Source: Oscillospiraceae bacterium (GTDB taxonomy: Bacteria; Bacillota; Clostridia; Oscillospirales; Ruminococcaceae). From it: DNA of 64,000 nucleotides. The notes below the pieces were generated by a model. It did not search any database and was not told the origin of the DNA. It worked only from the letters and a program-made list of their open reading frames with translations. Of this stretch, positions 7,301-38,510 are shown piece by piece; position 1 is the stretch's first letter, and each line of letters begins with the position of its first letter. The stretch lies in NCBI GenBank assembly GCA_016281125.1, contig JAEEIA010000010.1, positions 62,001-126,000 on the forward strand. The letters run 5' to 3'. A program made the translations under genes and the position numbers.

Positions 7301-7875
7301 AGGAAGTGTCAGAGCGCTACACGTTCATGACCGGTCAGATCAAGGATATTGAGCAGGCGAAGACAGAACTGGAGCAGCTCATCGCGCAGCTGACCGCTGA
7401 CATGTGCGTGATTTTCCAGGAGAGCTTCACGAAGATCAACAAGTATTTCGGGGAGATTTTCACCGAGCTGTTCGGCGGCGGCAGTGCCTCGCTGGAGCTG
7501 ACCGATCCGGATCATATTCTCGAATCCGGCATTGAGATCAAGGTTGCGCCGCCCGGCAAGGTCATCAAGAATCTGATTGCACTGTCCGGCGGTGAGCAGT
7601 CTTTTGTTGCGATTTGTATTTATTTTGCGATTTTGAAGCTGCGTCCGGCACCGTTCTGTATTCTGGACGAGATTGACGCGGCGCTGGACGAGGTCAACGT
7701 GCGCAAATACGCGCAGTATCTGAAACACTTCTTCGGACAGGTGCAGTTTGTCGTCGTGACGCACAGACGCTCTGCCATGGACGAAGCCAATGTGCTGTAC
7801 GGCGTCACCATGCAGGAGGACGGCGTTTCAAGATTACTGCGGCTTGACCAGAGCGGCGAAGCGATTACTGATTAA
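4318..7875 (+). CDS. smc: Chromosome segregation protein SMC
   Basis: This 1185-residue condensin ATPase compacts and separates chromosomes together with ScpA and ScpB, which are not in the window. The N-terminal head has Walker A GPNGSGKS (residues 31-38). Two long Gln/Glu/Ala-rich coiled-coil arms flank a hinge domain, about residues 500-640, which includes GGVHGTVAQ and TALGGALQN. The C-terminal head has the ABC signature LSGGEQ and Walker B FCILDEIDAALDE. Length is normal for bacterial SMC. The smc-ftsY order is conserved in Firmicutes. A MITE-like element begins right after the stop codon. Confidence 0.98.
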   Translation: MYLKSLELQGFKSFPDKITLTFDEGLTAVVGPNGSGKSNIGDAVRWVLGEQSTKELRGKSMEDVIFSGTKTRKPMGFAAVTLTIDNSDHALSDPEPEVAVTRRLYRSGDSEYLINGKNVRLKDVNELFMDTGLGRDGYAIIGQGRIAEIVGAKSNERRDIFEEAAGVSKFRYRKQEAERKLSQAQDNLLRLTDITAELEGRIGPLKTQAEKAEKYLVLAAERRKLEVSFWVYRLNRQTAQLQTLSDSYLQLTAEYENLESDLHRSEEALQLAFQDMQQATVDIEQLQNRIVASEQENAEVTASIAVCENEIRHSNEKITSLEAQRGQLNDSGDSWEKKLAEQDAYLDTLSDRQNVLTQEIAAQEQALAELDRQGTAQNDTVTGQDTALRKLYLQQNEQRVRIQSILHDRAETADMIRRAEADGSSVAERLREYGKEEQKLQKQAEAAGQKIAEQQNRLAGFKQLAGIREQKYQQALDKLNQCSSEYQQVQQKQRILRDLEQNMEGYAGSVRQILKVAGSGRIGGVHGTVAQRITVAPEYGTAIETALGGALQNLIVENEETAKRCIRYLKEVRGGRATFLPLTTIKGGRLREQLDGTEGFVALACDLVKYDAVYRNVMENLLGRIAVAEDIDSATNLARKFGYRFRIVTLDGQVIHSGGSFTGGSAARSAGVITRTHELEEAAEKLRTLEAEQETLKAEAAKRKAEWAKLLTDTEGAQALINEYQNAQNDVQQQIAALQVRAASDRAWQENEAEQRQRLNEKIVQLQAAEAEAQSALGELEQQIKAAEEQLRLDSETQIRLHSEQEMLTQQIAQQRIRQAELAKDLENERHKRINMAQSMEQAADQIAALEENIRQEKANISEKQQEISLLTSGQEARRTAITEMQNEIGKLRRIHEEKERHTREIQDGIGALRDAKEKQSAERTRVEERQNNVQHEIDDLVFRLQDSYELTRTEAEAEAQPVENVKEAETQLSSLKNRIRALGTVNVAAVDEYKEVSERYTFMTGQIKDIEQAKTELEQLIAQLTADMCVIFQESFTKINKYFGEIFTELFGGGSASLELTDPDHILESGIEIKVAPPGKVIKNLIALSGGEQSFVAICIYFAILKLRPAPFCILDEIDAALDEVNVRKYAQYLKHFFGQVQFVVVTHRRSAMDEANVLYGVTMQEDGVSRLLRLDQSGEAITD

Positions 7876-8030
7876 GAGGTATCTCCGATGGATTTATAAT
7901 GGGGCTCTGCCTCAACCCCCGCCAAAGGAACACTGTCCCTTTGGAATCCCAAAATAATATCGTCATAATGGGATTCTGAACGGACAATGTTCCCGATTTG
8001 AATCGCCGGAAAGCATGTGCGGGGAGCCGA
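7876..8030. mobile_element. MITE-like inverted-repeat element, copy 1 (decayed right end)
   Basis: This non-coding stretch starts at the base after the smc stop codon and ends before the ftsY ribosome site. Its left end, with CTCCGATGGATTTATAATG, matches the element at 30784-30976, and the match continues through CCCCCGCCA, a small hairpin around GGAC/GTCC and the segment GGGATTCT. The right end, around GAATCGCCGGAAAGC, is a degraded form of the inverted repeat seen intact at 30.9 kb. There is no transposase frame. Because it lies inside the smc-ftsY operon it would be transcribed. Confidence 0.65.
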
Positions 8031-20052: not shown

Positions 20053-20370
20053 AGATGCGAAACACTTTTGTTTCCTGTCTTTATTCTTTTGTCCTGCGTT
20101 TATTCTGGCTGGGCGCGGGGCGCGAATTCTGAGAGGAAACCACAAGAGAGGGGAGAGAAGCGCCGCCGGCGGCTTATTCTCTCCCCTCCCTTAAGGTTTC
20201 CTCTCAGACTCTCTTTCCTTATTCCTCTCCTCTCTTGCTCCGCGTTTCAGCAGAGTGCCGGGGAGAAGCAGCTTTACAGAAGCCGCCCCGCGGCGTGAAC
20301 TTGGCAAGTGGGGAGAGCATCGCTTTATTTACCCGTAGGGAAATGCCCGCGGGGGCTCCGCGCCGTTTGC
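20053..20370. repeat. Dispersed palindromic repeat element, copy A
   Basis: This non-coding stretch is homologous to the array at 37.9-38.5 kb. Shared blocks, in order, are a T-rich lead-in, GGCTGGGCGCGGGGCGCGAA, a long hairpin, CTCTCCTCTCTTGCTCCGCG, AACAGAA/TACAGAA-like spacer text, and GGGAAATGCCCGCGGGGGCT. The hairpin at 20128-20208 has a perfect 14-bp outer arm (TCTGAGAGGAAACC with GGTTTCCTCTCAGA) and a 12-bp inner arm (GAGGGGAGAGAA with TTCTCTCCCCTC). It fills the gap between nadE and the ACT-operon promoter. No protein frame is convincing. Confidence 0.8.
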
Positions 20371-30763: not shown

Positions 30764-30783
30764 ACAGACCTCCCGGATGGTAA

Positions 30784-30976
30784 AGAGGGATCTCCGATGG
30801 ATTCAGAATGGGACGCTGTCCCATCCCCCGCCAGAGGGACGATTCCTCTGGACTCCCGAACCAATTGAAAAATAAAGTAAATACACGTTTTTTCGTCGTA
30901 ACGGGATTCTTAAGGGACGAGTCCCTTAAGCAGGGGGTTGGGGGCAGCGCCCACATTATAAATCCGCCGGAGGCAC
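30784..30976. mobile_element. MITE-like inverted-repeat element, copy 2 (complete)
   Basis: The left end reads CTCCGATGGATTCAGAATGG and the right end, reversed, reads CTCCGGCGGATTTATAATG. The two ends form terminal inverted repeats of about 45 bp, continuing through CGCTG and CCCCC. Inside lie two hairpins: CCAGAGG/CCTCTGG and a perfect CTTAAGGGAC/GTCCCTTAAG. The right end touches the yqfC stop codon and the left end stops 20 bp before the yqfD start, so it fills the gap between two operon genes. There is no coding frame. Confidence 0.75.
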
Positions 30977-36480: not shown

Positions 36481-37668
36481 ATGCGACAGAAGGATAATCT
36501 GCTGATTCCGGCCATGCTGGATGCGCACTTTCCGCTGATGAAATATGCGTTCTATTCCAGGCAGTATCAGCCGGTGATTCTGAACAACCGCCGGGATGTG
36601 ACAGAGCTCGGACTGCGCTGGGTTCACAATGATATGTGCTATCCCTGCATCCTGAACACCGGGCAGATGCTTGGCGCACTGCGCAGCGGACGGTTTGACA
36701 CGGATCATACCAAACTGCTGATGCCGACTGTTGGTGATGCCTGCCGCGGCTCAAACTATGCGGACCTGATCCGGAGGGCAGTCAGGCTTGCCGGGTATCC
36801 GCAGGTGAAGGTTCTGACGATGAACCTGCGGCATATTGACGATGATAATCAGCTGCCGATCACGCCGAAAATGGTGTGGCGGGCGCTGTTCAGCCTCTAC
36901 TACGGTGATCTGCTGATGCTGCTCGTGCAGCAGGTGCGGCCTTACGAGCTGCACCGCGGCGAAACCGAAAGGCTCCGGGATTACTGGTACGGCGTGCTCG
37001 GCGCGGAGCTGCGGGATTTCCGGAATCTGCGGATTTCCGTGCTCAAACAGCGTTTTACCCAAATCACGCAGGCGTTTTCCGAAATTCCGCGCAGCAGCGA
37101 GAAAAAGCAGCGCATCGGCATTGTCGGGGATCTGTATACGCGCTATTGCAGCCTCGGAAACTGGGACATTGTGGACTTTCTGGAGCGTTCGGGCTGCGAG
37201 AGCTTTACGGACGGCCTTTCGTGGTATGTGCTCTATTACATCGACTCGCATCTTAGAACTGTGAATCCAGTTGAAGCGGCCGTTTACCGGATTGCGGAAC
37301 AGCTGCTTGCACACTTGCAGGACGCGATGATTGCGGCGCTGGAGAAACACGGTTTCTTTACGCTGCCGCGGCTGCAAACGCTCAAAAAGGAAACCGAGGG
37401 CATCGTCAGCCACAATGTCGCAATCGGGGACGGCTGGCTGATCGGCGCCGAGGTCGCGGGGTATCTCCTGCACGGATGCAGAAAGGTGCTTGCGATTCAG
37501 CCGTTCGGCTGCATGGCGAACCATGTTGCGGGACGCGGCATTTATGCTTCGATTCAGCGGAAATGTGGCGGTGCGGTCGTCAGTGCGGACGTGGACGCCA
37601 GCGGTACGCCGGTCAATGTCTATAACCGCGCACGGATGCTGATTGATCTGTCTGACGTGCTCTGCTGA
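36481..37668 (+). CDS. DUF2229-type acyl-CoA dehydratase activase-related protein (stand-alone)
   Basis: This 395-residue soluble protein matches the C-terminal part of large 2-hydroxyacyl-CoA dehydratase activase-related proteins. Blocks include NDMCYPCILNTGQM, MPTVGDACRGSNY, RIGIVGDLYTRYC and IQPFGCMANHVAGRG. Its Cys residues are in positions that could hold an Fe-S cluster. The ATPase activase domain usually joined to it is absent and no dehydratase genes lie nearby. AGAGAGG precedes ATG 36481. The function of this group is not settled. Confidence 0.78.
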   Translation: MRQKDNLLIPAMLDAHFPLMKYAFYSRQYQPVILNNRRDVTELGLRWVHNDMCYPCILNTGQMLGALRSGRFDTDHTKLLMPTVGDACRGSNYADLIRRAVRLAGYPQVKVLTMNLRHIDDDNQLPITPKMVWRALFSLYYGDLLMLLVQQVRPYELHRGETERLRDYWYGVLGAELRDFRNLRISVLKQRFTQITQAFSEIPRSSEKKQRIGIVGDLYTRYCSLGNWDIVDFLERSGCESFTDGLSWYVLYYIDSHLRTVNPVEAAVYRIAEQLLAHLQDAMIAALEKHGFFTLPRLQTLKKETEGIVSHNVAIGDGWLIGAEVAGYLLHGCRKVLAIQPFGCMANHVAGRGIYASIQRKCGGAVVSADVDASGTPVNVYNRARMLIDLSDVLC

Positions 37669-37715: not shown

Positions 37716-37940
37716 TTATCAGAGAAGGTATAAGCCGTAGTATTTCTGATGTGCAGTCAGAAGTGCTGCGGCGTTTTGTTTGGCGGAGCGGCGGTGCTGC
37801 GCTGTCATTTTACGAATATATCATAGTGGTTTCAGGCATCCTCGCTTGCTCCGCGCTTTATTGGGGTGCGGCAACACGGATAAGGAAGCGGATTTTTAAG
37901 GAGGGCAAGGGGGGCAGGAAAGCGGGGGCTCTGGGGCGAA
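37716..37940. other. Gene-free lead-in to the repeat array, with a decayed repeat end
   Basis: I see no credible gene; a frame at 37751-38110 runs through repeat sequence and looks random. Between about 37840 and 37940 the text CTTGCTCCGCG and then AGCGGGGGCTCTGGGGCG resembles the downstream blocks of the palindromic repeat family, suggesting a degraded extra copy. Confidence 0.45.
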
Positions 37941-38293
37941 AATGCAAAGATTATTGTCCCCGTTCTTTATCCTTTCGTTCGGTGTATATTTTGGCTGGGC
38001 GCGGGGCGCGAATGCGAGAAGGACAACCCAAGAAAGAGGGGAGGCGCTCCCTACGGTCGCTTATCTCCCCTCTCTCTAAGGTTTTCCCTCTCGCGCTCTC
38101 TCTTTCCTGACTCTCTCCTCTCTGTGCGCTCAATTTCGGCTCTGCGGAAAAGGTGAGGGGAGCGTTGGTTCAGGCGCCCCCATTGCTGAGAGAAGAAGCG
38201 TAACAGAAACCGCAAAAAGCGGCGTATATTCGGTAAAAAGGGAGCGCATTGGTCAATCCACCCGGAGGGAAATGCCAGCGGGGGCTCCCCGCC
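37941..38293. repeat. Palindromic repeat element, copy B
   Basis: This is a full-length relative of copy A (20053-20370), with the same order of blocks: T-rich lead-in, GGCTGGGCGCGGGGCGCGAA (37993-38012), the hairpin at about 38013-38095, a CT-rich block, a spacer with AACAGAAACCGC, and GGGAAATGCCAGCGGGGGCT. The segment 38003-38123 is repeated almost exactly at 38294-38414 (one difference seen), a 291-bp tandem period. Confidence 0.85.
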
Positions 38294-38480
38294 GGGGCGC
38301 GAATGCGAGAGGGACAACCCAAGAAAGAGGGGAGGCGCTCCCTACGGTCGCTTATCTCCCCTCTCTCTAAGGTTTTCCCTCTCGCGCTCTCTCTTTCCTG
38401 ACTCTCTCCTCTCTTGCTCCGCGTTTCAACAGAGCGTTTGGAGTGCAGCGGTCAGTTTACTCGAAGGGCACTGCCCGCCT
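38294..38480. repeat. Palindromic repeat element, copy C (tandem, shortened)
   Basis: Begins with the 121-bp segment shared with copy B. The hairpin arms GCGAGAGGGACAACC and GGTTTTCCCTCTCGC pair with one mismatch. The CT-rich block and TTGCTCCGCGTTTCAACAGAG follow as in copy A, then a shortened tail with TTTACTCGAAGGGCACTGCC. It ends right at the promoter of the peptidase-dockerin gene. Confidence 0.8.
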
Positions 38481-38481
38481 C

Positions 38482-38510
38482 TTGCATAAAACGGAAAAGT
38501 GTGATATAAT
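38482..38510 (+). promoter_or_regulatory. Promoter of the C39-dockerin gene
   Basis: -35 TTGCAT (38482-38487), 17-bp spacer, -10 TATAAT (38505-38510). It directly follows the repeat array. Confidence 0.85.

Follow-up and report, generated by a model that had tools for sequence, protein, structure and literature searches.

The repeats upstream of a dockerin gene in the window, a stretch of 64,000 nucleotides from an Oscillospiraceae bacterium, belong to a dispersed family in which a hairpin is followed by a third tract that mirrors one of the hairpin's own arms. On balance, the comparison of copies modestly favours a non-coding mobile DNA element of the MITE or BIME kind, the core of which would be an intrastrand purine-motif DNA triplex maintained by selection. 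More broadly, it points to natural selection acting on an unusual three-stranded fold of bacterial DNA. The sequence-only reading had offered three possibilities: an RNA, a structured DNA site or a non-autonomous mobile element. The latter two are jointly supported because of the many dispersed copies, the inverted pairs, the hairpin duplications in the complete genome G184 and a conserved structure that fits a triplex of DNA type. The RNA has little support in this genus.

Three full copies, A, B and C, lie in the window (Table 1), and one covariance model matches all of them. Copies B and C had been described as nearly identical and spaced by 291 nt, and are so: 38002-38123 and 38293-38414, 122 nt each, differ at the single position 38020 (A/G). 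Their kinship to copy A (~20107-20244) was also correctly recognized, with 73% identity over 105 nt. The single block order proposed for all copies is kept in part, C having no leader box and B no TTGCTCCGCG. Thus, GGCTGGGCGCGGGGCGCGAA is found in A and B only, C retaining just GGGGCGCGAA, and TTGCTCCGCG stands at 20235 in A and at 38414 in C, B carrying TGTGCGCTCAA instead at 38123. The block that had been labelled simply as CT-rich is the mirror of the hairpin's own 3′ arm, a key feature that was missed. As had been stated, B and C have no coding frame: the sole ORF of at least 100 aa over either copy, 37751-38110, has no Pfam match. The window hairpin is more stable than its shuffled counterparts, with z values of −3.2 on the + strand and −4.9 on the − strand.

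Table 1. Coordinates of the element copies and of neighbouring features in the window.
Feature	Position	Strand	Remark
Copy A leader box GGCTGGGCGCGGGGCGCGAA	20107..20126	+	Exact match; genus-conserved leader (50 copies)
Copy A purine-rich 5′ hairpin arm	20129..20157	+	
Copy A pyrimidine-rich 3′ arm	20179..20207	+	
Copy A third (mirror) tract	20208..20236	+	21/30 aligned columns equal the reversed 3′ arm
Intrinsic-terminator-like host hairpin, just 5′ of the array	37734..37772	+	Within another dispersed repeat, 37723-37820
Relic, inverted copy of the G-rich type, 5′ of B (fourth copy)	~37894..37966	−	Covariance model match at G000:C16:99894-99966:-, E 2e-7
Copy B leader through GGCTGGGCGCGGGGCGCGAA	37951..38012	+	Start approximate; conservation from ~46 nt before GGGCGCGGGGCGCGAA (50 copies)
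Copy B purine-rich 5′ arm	38014..38043	+	
Copy B hairpin loop, 21 nt	38044-38064	+	
Copy B pyrimidine-rich 3′ arm	38065..38094	+	
Copy B third (mirror) tract	38095..38122	+	22/30 aligned columns equal the reversed 3′ arm
Separate dispersed repeat, module M2, between B and C	38185..38293	+	GGGAAATGCC at 38267; several blastn matches span only query ~245-353
Copy C purine-rich 5′ arm	38305..38334	+	
Copy C pyrimidine-rich 3′ arm	38356..38385	+	
Copy C third (mirror) tract	38386..38413	+	
Copy C end block TTGCTCCGCG	38414..38423	+	
Promoter-like TTGCAT-17-TATAAT of the dockerin gene	38482..38510	+	By eye; 58 bp past the element

The claim that the array ends exactly at the promoter of the dockerin gene was too strong, the last block stopping at 38423 and TTGCAT-17-TATAAT beginning at 38482. 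This motif was spotted by eye and went unflagged in a promoter scan. Proximity to the dockerin gene appears to be coincidental. Upstream of the array, the 395-aa ORF at 36481-37668 has no Pfam match at E ≤ 0.001. Further repeats were encountered in the window. Module M2 (CAGAAGCCGC..GCGGCGTG..GGGAGCG..GGGAAATGCC..GCGGGGGCTCCCCGCC) is present several times in this genome at places that lack the triplex hairpin. The terminator-like hairpin of 37723-37820 is repeated, together with its conserved surroundings, in many genomes of the genus (on several contigs of G026 and G011, and in G015 and G018). A 63-nt repeat pair of 81% identity at 7869-7931 and 30778-30840 (TGATTAAGAGGTATCTCCGATGG...) apparently bears no relation to the element.

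A search of the whole genome (G000) located the repeats beyond the window as well. According to blastn, there are 42 matches, more than expected by chance, many of them partial and some to only the separate repeat between B and C. A covariance model built from 37 copies returned 53 rows, many of which are opposite-strand echoes of the same hairpins; counting each hairpin once leaves 25 distinct sites at E ≤ 1e-9 and some five relics. In the genus, the model matched 26 of the 29 other genomes at E ≤ 0.001 (27 of 30 with the window's own), the exceptions at this threshold being G006, G014 and G015. Searches of the family and the order were run with stricter filters. In the family, 16 of 148 genomes matched at E ≤ 1e-4, corresponding to 16 of 123 genera including the window's own and often with many copies; up to 15 genera besides the window's own have related hairpins. 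At the level of the order, matches came from 14 of 345 genomes, 11 of them in the same family. Lone weak matches in G031, G069 and G174 may be due to chance. Exact matches to the leader were present in 33 stretches attributed to Oscillospiraceae, Clostridiales or Clostridia bacteria and to uncultured Ruminococcus, several of them from rumen or omasum. Some copies sit at contig ends. A phage or plasmid origin was discarded, a 176-bp query having no match in the phage and plasmid collections. In other genera and families, L209, L222, L396, L399, L400 and L404 carry short hairpins, such as GGGGGAAAACCTTTT..AAAAGGTTTTCCCCC followed by CCCTCTTTCCAAAACTTTT, which are possibly a simpler, more widespread version of the element. 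A literature search of titles and abstract openings, covering few subscription journals, gave no such elements in Ruminococcus or its relatives among the matches listed.

Every copy is built in the same manner: a purine-rich 5′ arm, a loop, a pyrimidine-rich 3′ arm and, after a turn a few bases long, a third tract of pyrimidines. In the consensus hairpin, 10 of 15 pairs display two-sided changes. The 5′ arm contributes AACC, the 3′ arm GGTT and the third tract TTCC to an invariant or well conserved core; here CC interrupts the purine arm and the triad rule is broken. When copies are read side by side, the third tract mirrors the 3′ arm of the same copy. By eye, almost the entire tract mirrors in L139 and L142, both from divergent genomes, the centre is perfectly mirrored in the G-rich type, and the mirror relation also holds for asymmetric tracts (L103 and L142, for example). 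Three genomes (L090, L096 and L117; L114; L103) have copies in which, by eye, the turn that joins the 3′ arm to the third tract holds an extra small palindrome, the tract resuming past the palindrome where the record is long enough.

To quantify the mirror relationship, the reversed 3′ arm of each copy was aligned to its own third tract and to third tracts swapped in from other copies. The main set started from 414 matches, of which 275 remained after removal of opposite-strand echoes. From these, 12 that were too short or contained N, 66 duplicates, 35 without a clear hairpin and 15 that were unparsable were dropped, leaving 147 copies in 46 clusters. As parsing was anchored on GGTT and TTCC (with fallbacks), copies that have lost both anchors are missing from the set. 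Across the 46 clusters (<80% identity), the mirror score was 12.54 for own tracts versus 8.90 for swapped ones (0/10,000 permutations), with a z of 14.0 that, as with all z values of the mirror test, is not an independent-sample statistic because pyrimidine tracts are of low complexity and clusters share ancestry. In the direct-orientation control, the scores were 9.02 versus 8.49 (z 2.5). Shared ancestry inflates z in both orientations, and the excess of mirror over direct is therefore the telling result. This excess was present in 26 clusters at <70% identity (z 10.2 mirror, 1.4 direct), within the same genus (n = 29; 10.6 and 2.3), within other genera (n = 17; 6.9, with 0/10,000, and 0.5) and with one copy per genome (n = 28; 11.1 and 3.3). 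An earlier set of 42 clusters yielded z values of 14.3 and 3.0, the own tract being the top match in 14 of 42 and having a median rank of 2 of 41. In the main set, comparisons inside single genomes favoured the own tract over the mean of swapped ones for 33 of 42 copies, with two ties.

The two blocks of the tract were also scored apart. The inner block gave a mirror z of 11.0 and a direct z of 2.5, and the outer block 10.0 and 6.6. For the inner block, the own mirror score was 10.00, as compared with 6.21 for letter-shuffled tracts (0/200) and 7.46 for swapped tracts. Direct scores likewise exceeded those of letter-shuffled tracts; this excess and the direct signal of the outer block reflect words that are short and nearly symmetric. 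Overall, we regard the covariation of the three tracts as solid on these alignments. Mirror images are not made by ordinary DNA copying, so selection would be the simplest cause.

The kinds of mismatch bear on the type of triplex. Triads were scored with the third base on the element's + strand. In the inner block, the third base at A-T pairs was T in 157, A in 46, C in 14 and G in 2 cases (n = 219), and at G-C pairs it was C in 328, T in 39, A in 14 and G in 2 (n = 383). Across both blocks, the ratio of A to C at A-T pairs was 66:29 in own tracts versus 1776:3052 in swapped tracts (p 2e-10), swapped tracts being an imperfect null for kinds of mismatch, which renders this step less secure than the mirror test. 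Third-base A occurred at 66 of 341 A-T pairs versus 23 of 611 G-C pairs (p 1e-14). For A-T pairs of the outer block, a larger set had no clear preference (T 75, A 20, C 15, G 12; n = 122), and a preference was present in a smaller set (T 85, A 18, C 0, G 1; n = 104). Read on the purine strand, the inner-block pattern corresponds to A·AT, T·AT and G·GC. These three triads make up the antiparallel purine motif (R-motif) according to the main text of Holder et al. 2015 (PMC4666352), in which purine-motif triplexes are also described as impossible in RNA. The inner-block mismatches thus appear to fit an antiparallel purine-motif DNA triplex, the outer block being less clear. DNA is favoured because a third A at A-T pairs is not a pyrimidine-motif triad and because the purine-motif triplex is barred from RNA. 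In the terms of Holder et al., the element is of class I, with the order third strand, purine arm and pyrimidine arm (Pu-Pu-Py). Judged by sequence, three consecutive tracts on one strand are capable of Watson-Crick and reverse-Hoogsteen pairing, with mismatches and an interrupting core.

Several observations concern mobility. Neighbouring copies within 450 bp of each other are inverted in 43 of 48 distinct pairs, an alternation of inverted palindromes of the sort that defines REP/BIME arrays; the direct B-C pair of the window is an exception. Of 33 fetched loci in relatives that have one orthologous flank, 14 belonging to the array and 19 to copy A, none matched the model. Relatives in which both flanks were located had them at non-adjacent places among the matches listed, and no exact empty site was detected. 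G068, from the genus of G184, was too diverged for comparison of empty sites. The hairpin of G184 occupies the centre of a dispersed unit of ~510 bp (507-640) with imperfect terminal repeats CAG[AT][TC]TGT. Thirty loci were fetched from this genome and 26 tested, L385, L390, L391 and L392 being excluded for an unclear core. A hairpin specific to the site stands on either side of the copy in 14 of the 26, the two being direct repeats of identical or nearly identical sequence; the remaining 12 have no such flanks. The duplicated hairpins are 21-35 nt long in 13 of the 14 cases and look like intrinsic terminators. L380, with a 15-nt palindrome, and L389, with a 66-nt repeat, are outside the 14 counted. 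We take these flanking duplications, clear in this genome only, as a likely sign of mobility.

More widely, flanking direct repeats passed a hairpin filter in 15 of 134 tested clusters, six from G184 and nine from the window's genus. Those at L005, L010, L061, L062, L066, L081 and L125 of the window's genus appeared by eye to be other dispersed repeats and were left uncounted. The flanks of the window array have just a weak 21-nt repeat, below threshold. The other two of the nine, L017 and L341, are possible cases. At L017 (G000:C1 ~77.2-77.6 kb), an element pair lies between exact direct repeats of at least 58 bp that include the start of an apparent HAD-type gene (type judged by eye). At L341 (G010:C29 ~47-49 kb), a 54-nt hairpin stands on either side of the element, with its loop inverted between the two. 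In genus g88, the unit is ~365 bp. When the hairpin was masked and 290 nt per side were compared (24 loci, 11 genera), the flanks were similar within most genomes compared and had no similarity between genera at E ≤ 1e-3. In this sample, the triplex hairpin is therefore the only part common between genera. Gene-orientation bias was absent, with counts of 27, 25, 20 and 18 for 90 copies (raw counts from crude ORF calls), and an ORF of at least 100 aa spanned 17 of the 90. Copies in G184 presented no pattern of chromosome strand bias by eye. Another dispersed repeat of ~178 bp, L349:17436-17614, has many copies in G184.

In general, REP/BIME and REPIN elements are dispersed palindromes that occur as inverted pairs and as mosaics with other repeats, and are associated with RAYT (Y1) transposases. 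The present family shares with them the dispersed palindromes, the inverted pairs and the mosaic with other repeats. By contrast, its hairpin is far longer, a third tract is added and no Y1 transposase was matched in the window's own genome. Dependence on Y1/IS200/RAYT enzymes was accordingly rejected for this genome, G000 having no PF01797 match. With MITEs the family shares dispersed units (~365 bp in g88, 507-640 bp in G184), and the flanking duplications in G184 may be a further likeness. It differs in that whole hairpins of 21-35 nt or more are duplicated, the terminal repeats are imperfect and the hairpin is central. Homopurine-homopyrimidine mirror symmetry is shared with H-DNA mirror repeats as described in PMC4060949; unlike in the latter, the complementary arm here is on the same strand, which would permit a full intrastrand triplex without the strand separation of a duplex mirror repeat.

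Intrastrand triplex repeats of bacteria have already been listed, and the nearest known kind is PIT/BoxC/TMECO of enterobacteria. As described in the main text of Holder et al. 2015 (PMC4666352), these are intergenic, multi-copy, G/C-rich purine-motif intrastrand triplexes with a short turn between purine tracts, and they include some inverted pairs, with no reported bias of strand or gene function; these properties are shared, the triplex of the present family being a predicted one. In the same text, TMECO is a 37-nt, class II (Py-Pu-Pu) repeat with 9-nt stems and loops of 3-6, present in 23 K-12 copies with an 'extraordinary' degree of identity. The present family is, by contrast, of class I when read on the purine strand. 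Its matching positions, ~20 in number, fall into two blocks on either side of a conserved core, the loop of the window copies measures 21 nt, sequence identity is low, the three strands covary, and the hosts are gut bacteria of the Oscillospiraceae type. Identity with TMECO/PIT was rejected, the copies departing from the consensus CCCTCNCCC N3-6 GGGNGAGGG N3 GGGNGAGGG in their Pu-Pu-Py order and in their sequences. They also fall outside the ITxF search definition, which allows stems of 6-15 nt, loops of 1-6 nt and no more than a single mismatch, copy B having a 21-nt loop and interrupted stems. The main text of PMC4666352 makes no mention of Ruminococcus, Clostridi or Firmicutes.

The explanation that competes most directly is that of a plain MITE or REP/BIME-like repeat, in which the third tract would play no part in a three-stranded structure and the hairpin would either serve transposition or arise as a by-product. 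The dispersal of copies and the inversion of neighbours are as such a repeat would have them, as are the ~510-bp unit of G184, its imperfect terminal repeats and its hairpin duplications. However, the mirror-wise tracking of arm changes by the third tract across genera is left unexplained, the hairpin of G184 is central rather than terminal, and the Y1 (IS200/RAYT-type) transposase, searched as PF01797, had no match in 12 of 16 element-bearing genomes, G000 included, as against matches in five of nine genomes without elements. We consider this explanation unlikely. Quite unlikely, in our estimation, is a transcribed, structured and pseudoknotted RNA, such as a cis-regulator, attenuator, terminator or small RNA, whose mirror tract would form a pyrimidine-motif RNA triple helix. 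The strong hairpin and its two-sided covariation are compatible with an RNA, as is a pairing found in other genera, where the apical loop is complementary to sequence just 3′ of the third tract, in the topology of an H-type pseudoknot (own run 7.42, swapped 5.19; 12 representatives; 0/20,000). This complementary sequence is located where the far end of the third tract would lie if the tract were bound to the arm. The pairing is absent from the window's genus, however (5.23 versus 5.29; 30 representatives), and a loop-tail pseudoknot was thus rejected as a general feature. Moreover, orientation to flanking genes is even, the sites turn over between relatives, and an A of the third tract facing an A-T pair, as seen in the inner block, is no pyrimidine-motif triad. 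Rfam 15 had no match in the window at the gathering score, which counts against a known RNA family; sub-threshold matches over the array were almost all microRNA hairpins.

Two further accounts concern the composition of the tracts. Each lineage might reuse CT, CCC or CTCC words in all of its tracts, the mirror signal then being an artefact of low complexity. Words like CTCTC and CCCCC are self-mirroring, and the raised direct control (particularly in the outer block) and its excess over letter shuffles are what such reuse would produce. Mirror scores nevertheless far exceed direct ones, most clearly in other genera, own inner blocks outscore both shuffled and swapped ones, and the asymmetric tracts of L103 and L142 mirror nonetheless, so that we hold this account to be very improbable. 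Less credible still is a G-quadruplex or i-motif element: one type does have runs of five G on the purine strand, yet its architecture is shared by the window copies and many others, whose tracts are of the GAGAG type and lack these runs.

The favoured purine-motif triplex would form on the strand opposite to that of the sequence-only reading. There, a purine tract comes first and is joined by a short turn to the hairpin, which consists of the purine arm, the loop and the pyrimidine arm in this order. This strand might become single-stranded as lagging-strand template, in a transcription bubble or under strong supercoiling. The first purine tract would then fold back antiparallel onto the purine arm of the hairpin, forming two blocks of G·GC, A·AT and T·AT triads, between which lies a conserved, non-triplex core (AACC..GGTT with CTTTCC). 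Against this fold stand the imperfect match in the window copies (21-22 of 30 columns) and the interruption of the purine strand by the conserved core. Alternatively, a triplex of the pyrimidine motif could arise on the complementary strand. We infer that the triplex may form in the cell, stall or recruit the replication or repair machinery and so help the element to copy or persist. The element's acting on replication or repair, to the benefit of its own persistence or copying, is probable, at a weaker grade than the structure itself. More tentatively, and as something short of probable, this may be the first case of a three-stranded DNA helix seen, from three-tract covariation and purine-motif triad rules, to be maintained by selection in a bacterial element, on a mobile carrier of which at least one lineage would insert at terminator hairpins and duplicate the whole hairpin, the triplex being part of the life cycle.

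A further point against the fold is that in vivo DMS footprinting of the enterobacterial analogue revealed no stable triplex, according to the main text of PMC4666352. Given this negative footprint in E. coli, a family of low identity, in which the third strand changes along with the hairpin, provides an evolutionary answer on the cellular importance of intrastrand triplex repeats that is independent of footprinting, and it offers natural compensatory variants. If the proposal is true, the triplex would have a part in the life cycle, for example as a replication stall that invites template switching. It would also account for a set of intergenic repeats in rumen Ruminococcus and its relatives, and would tie DNA structure to the mobility of the element.
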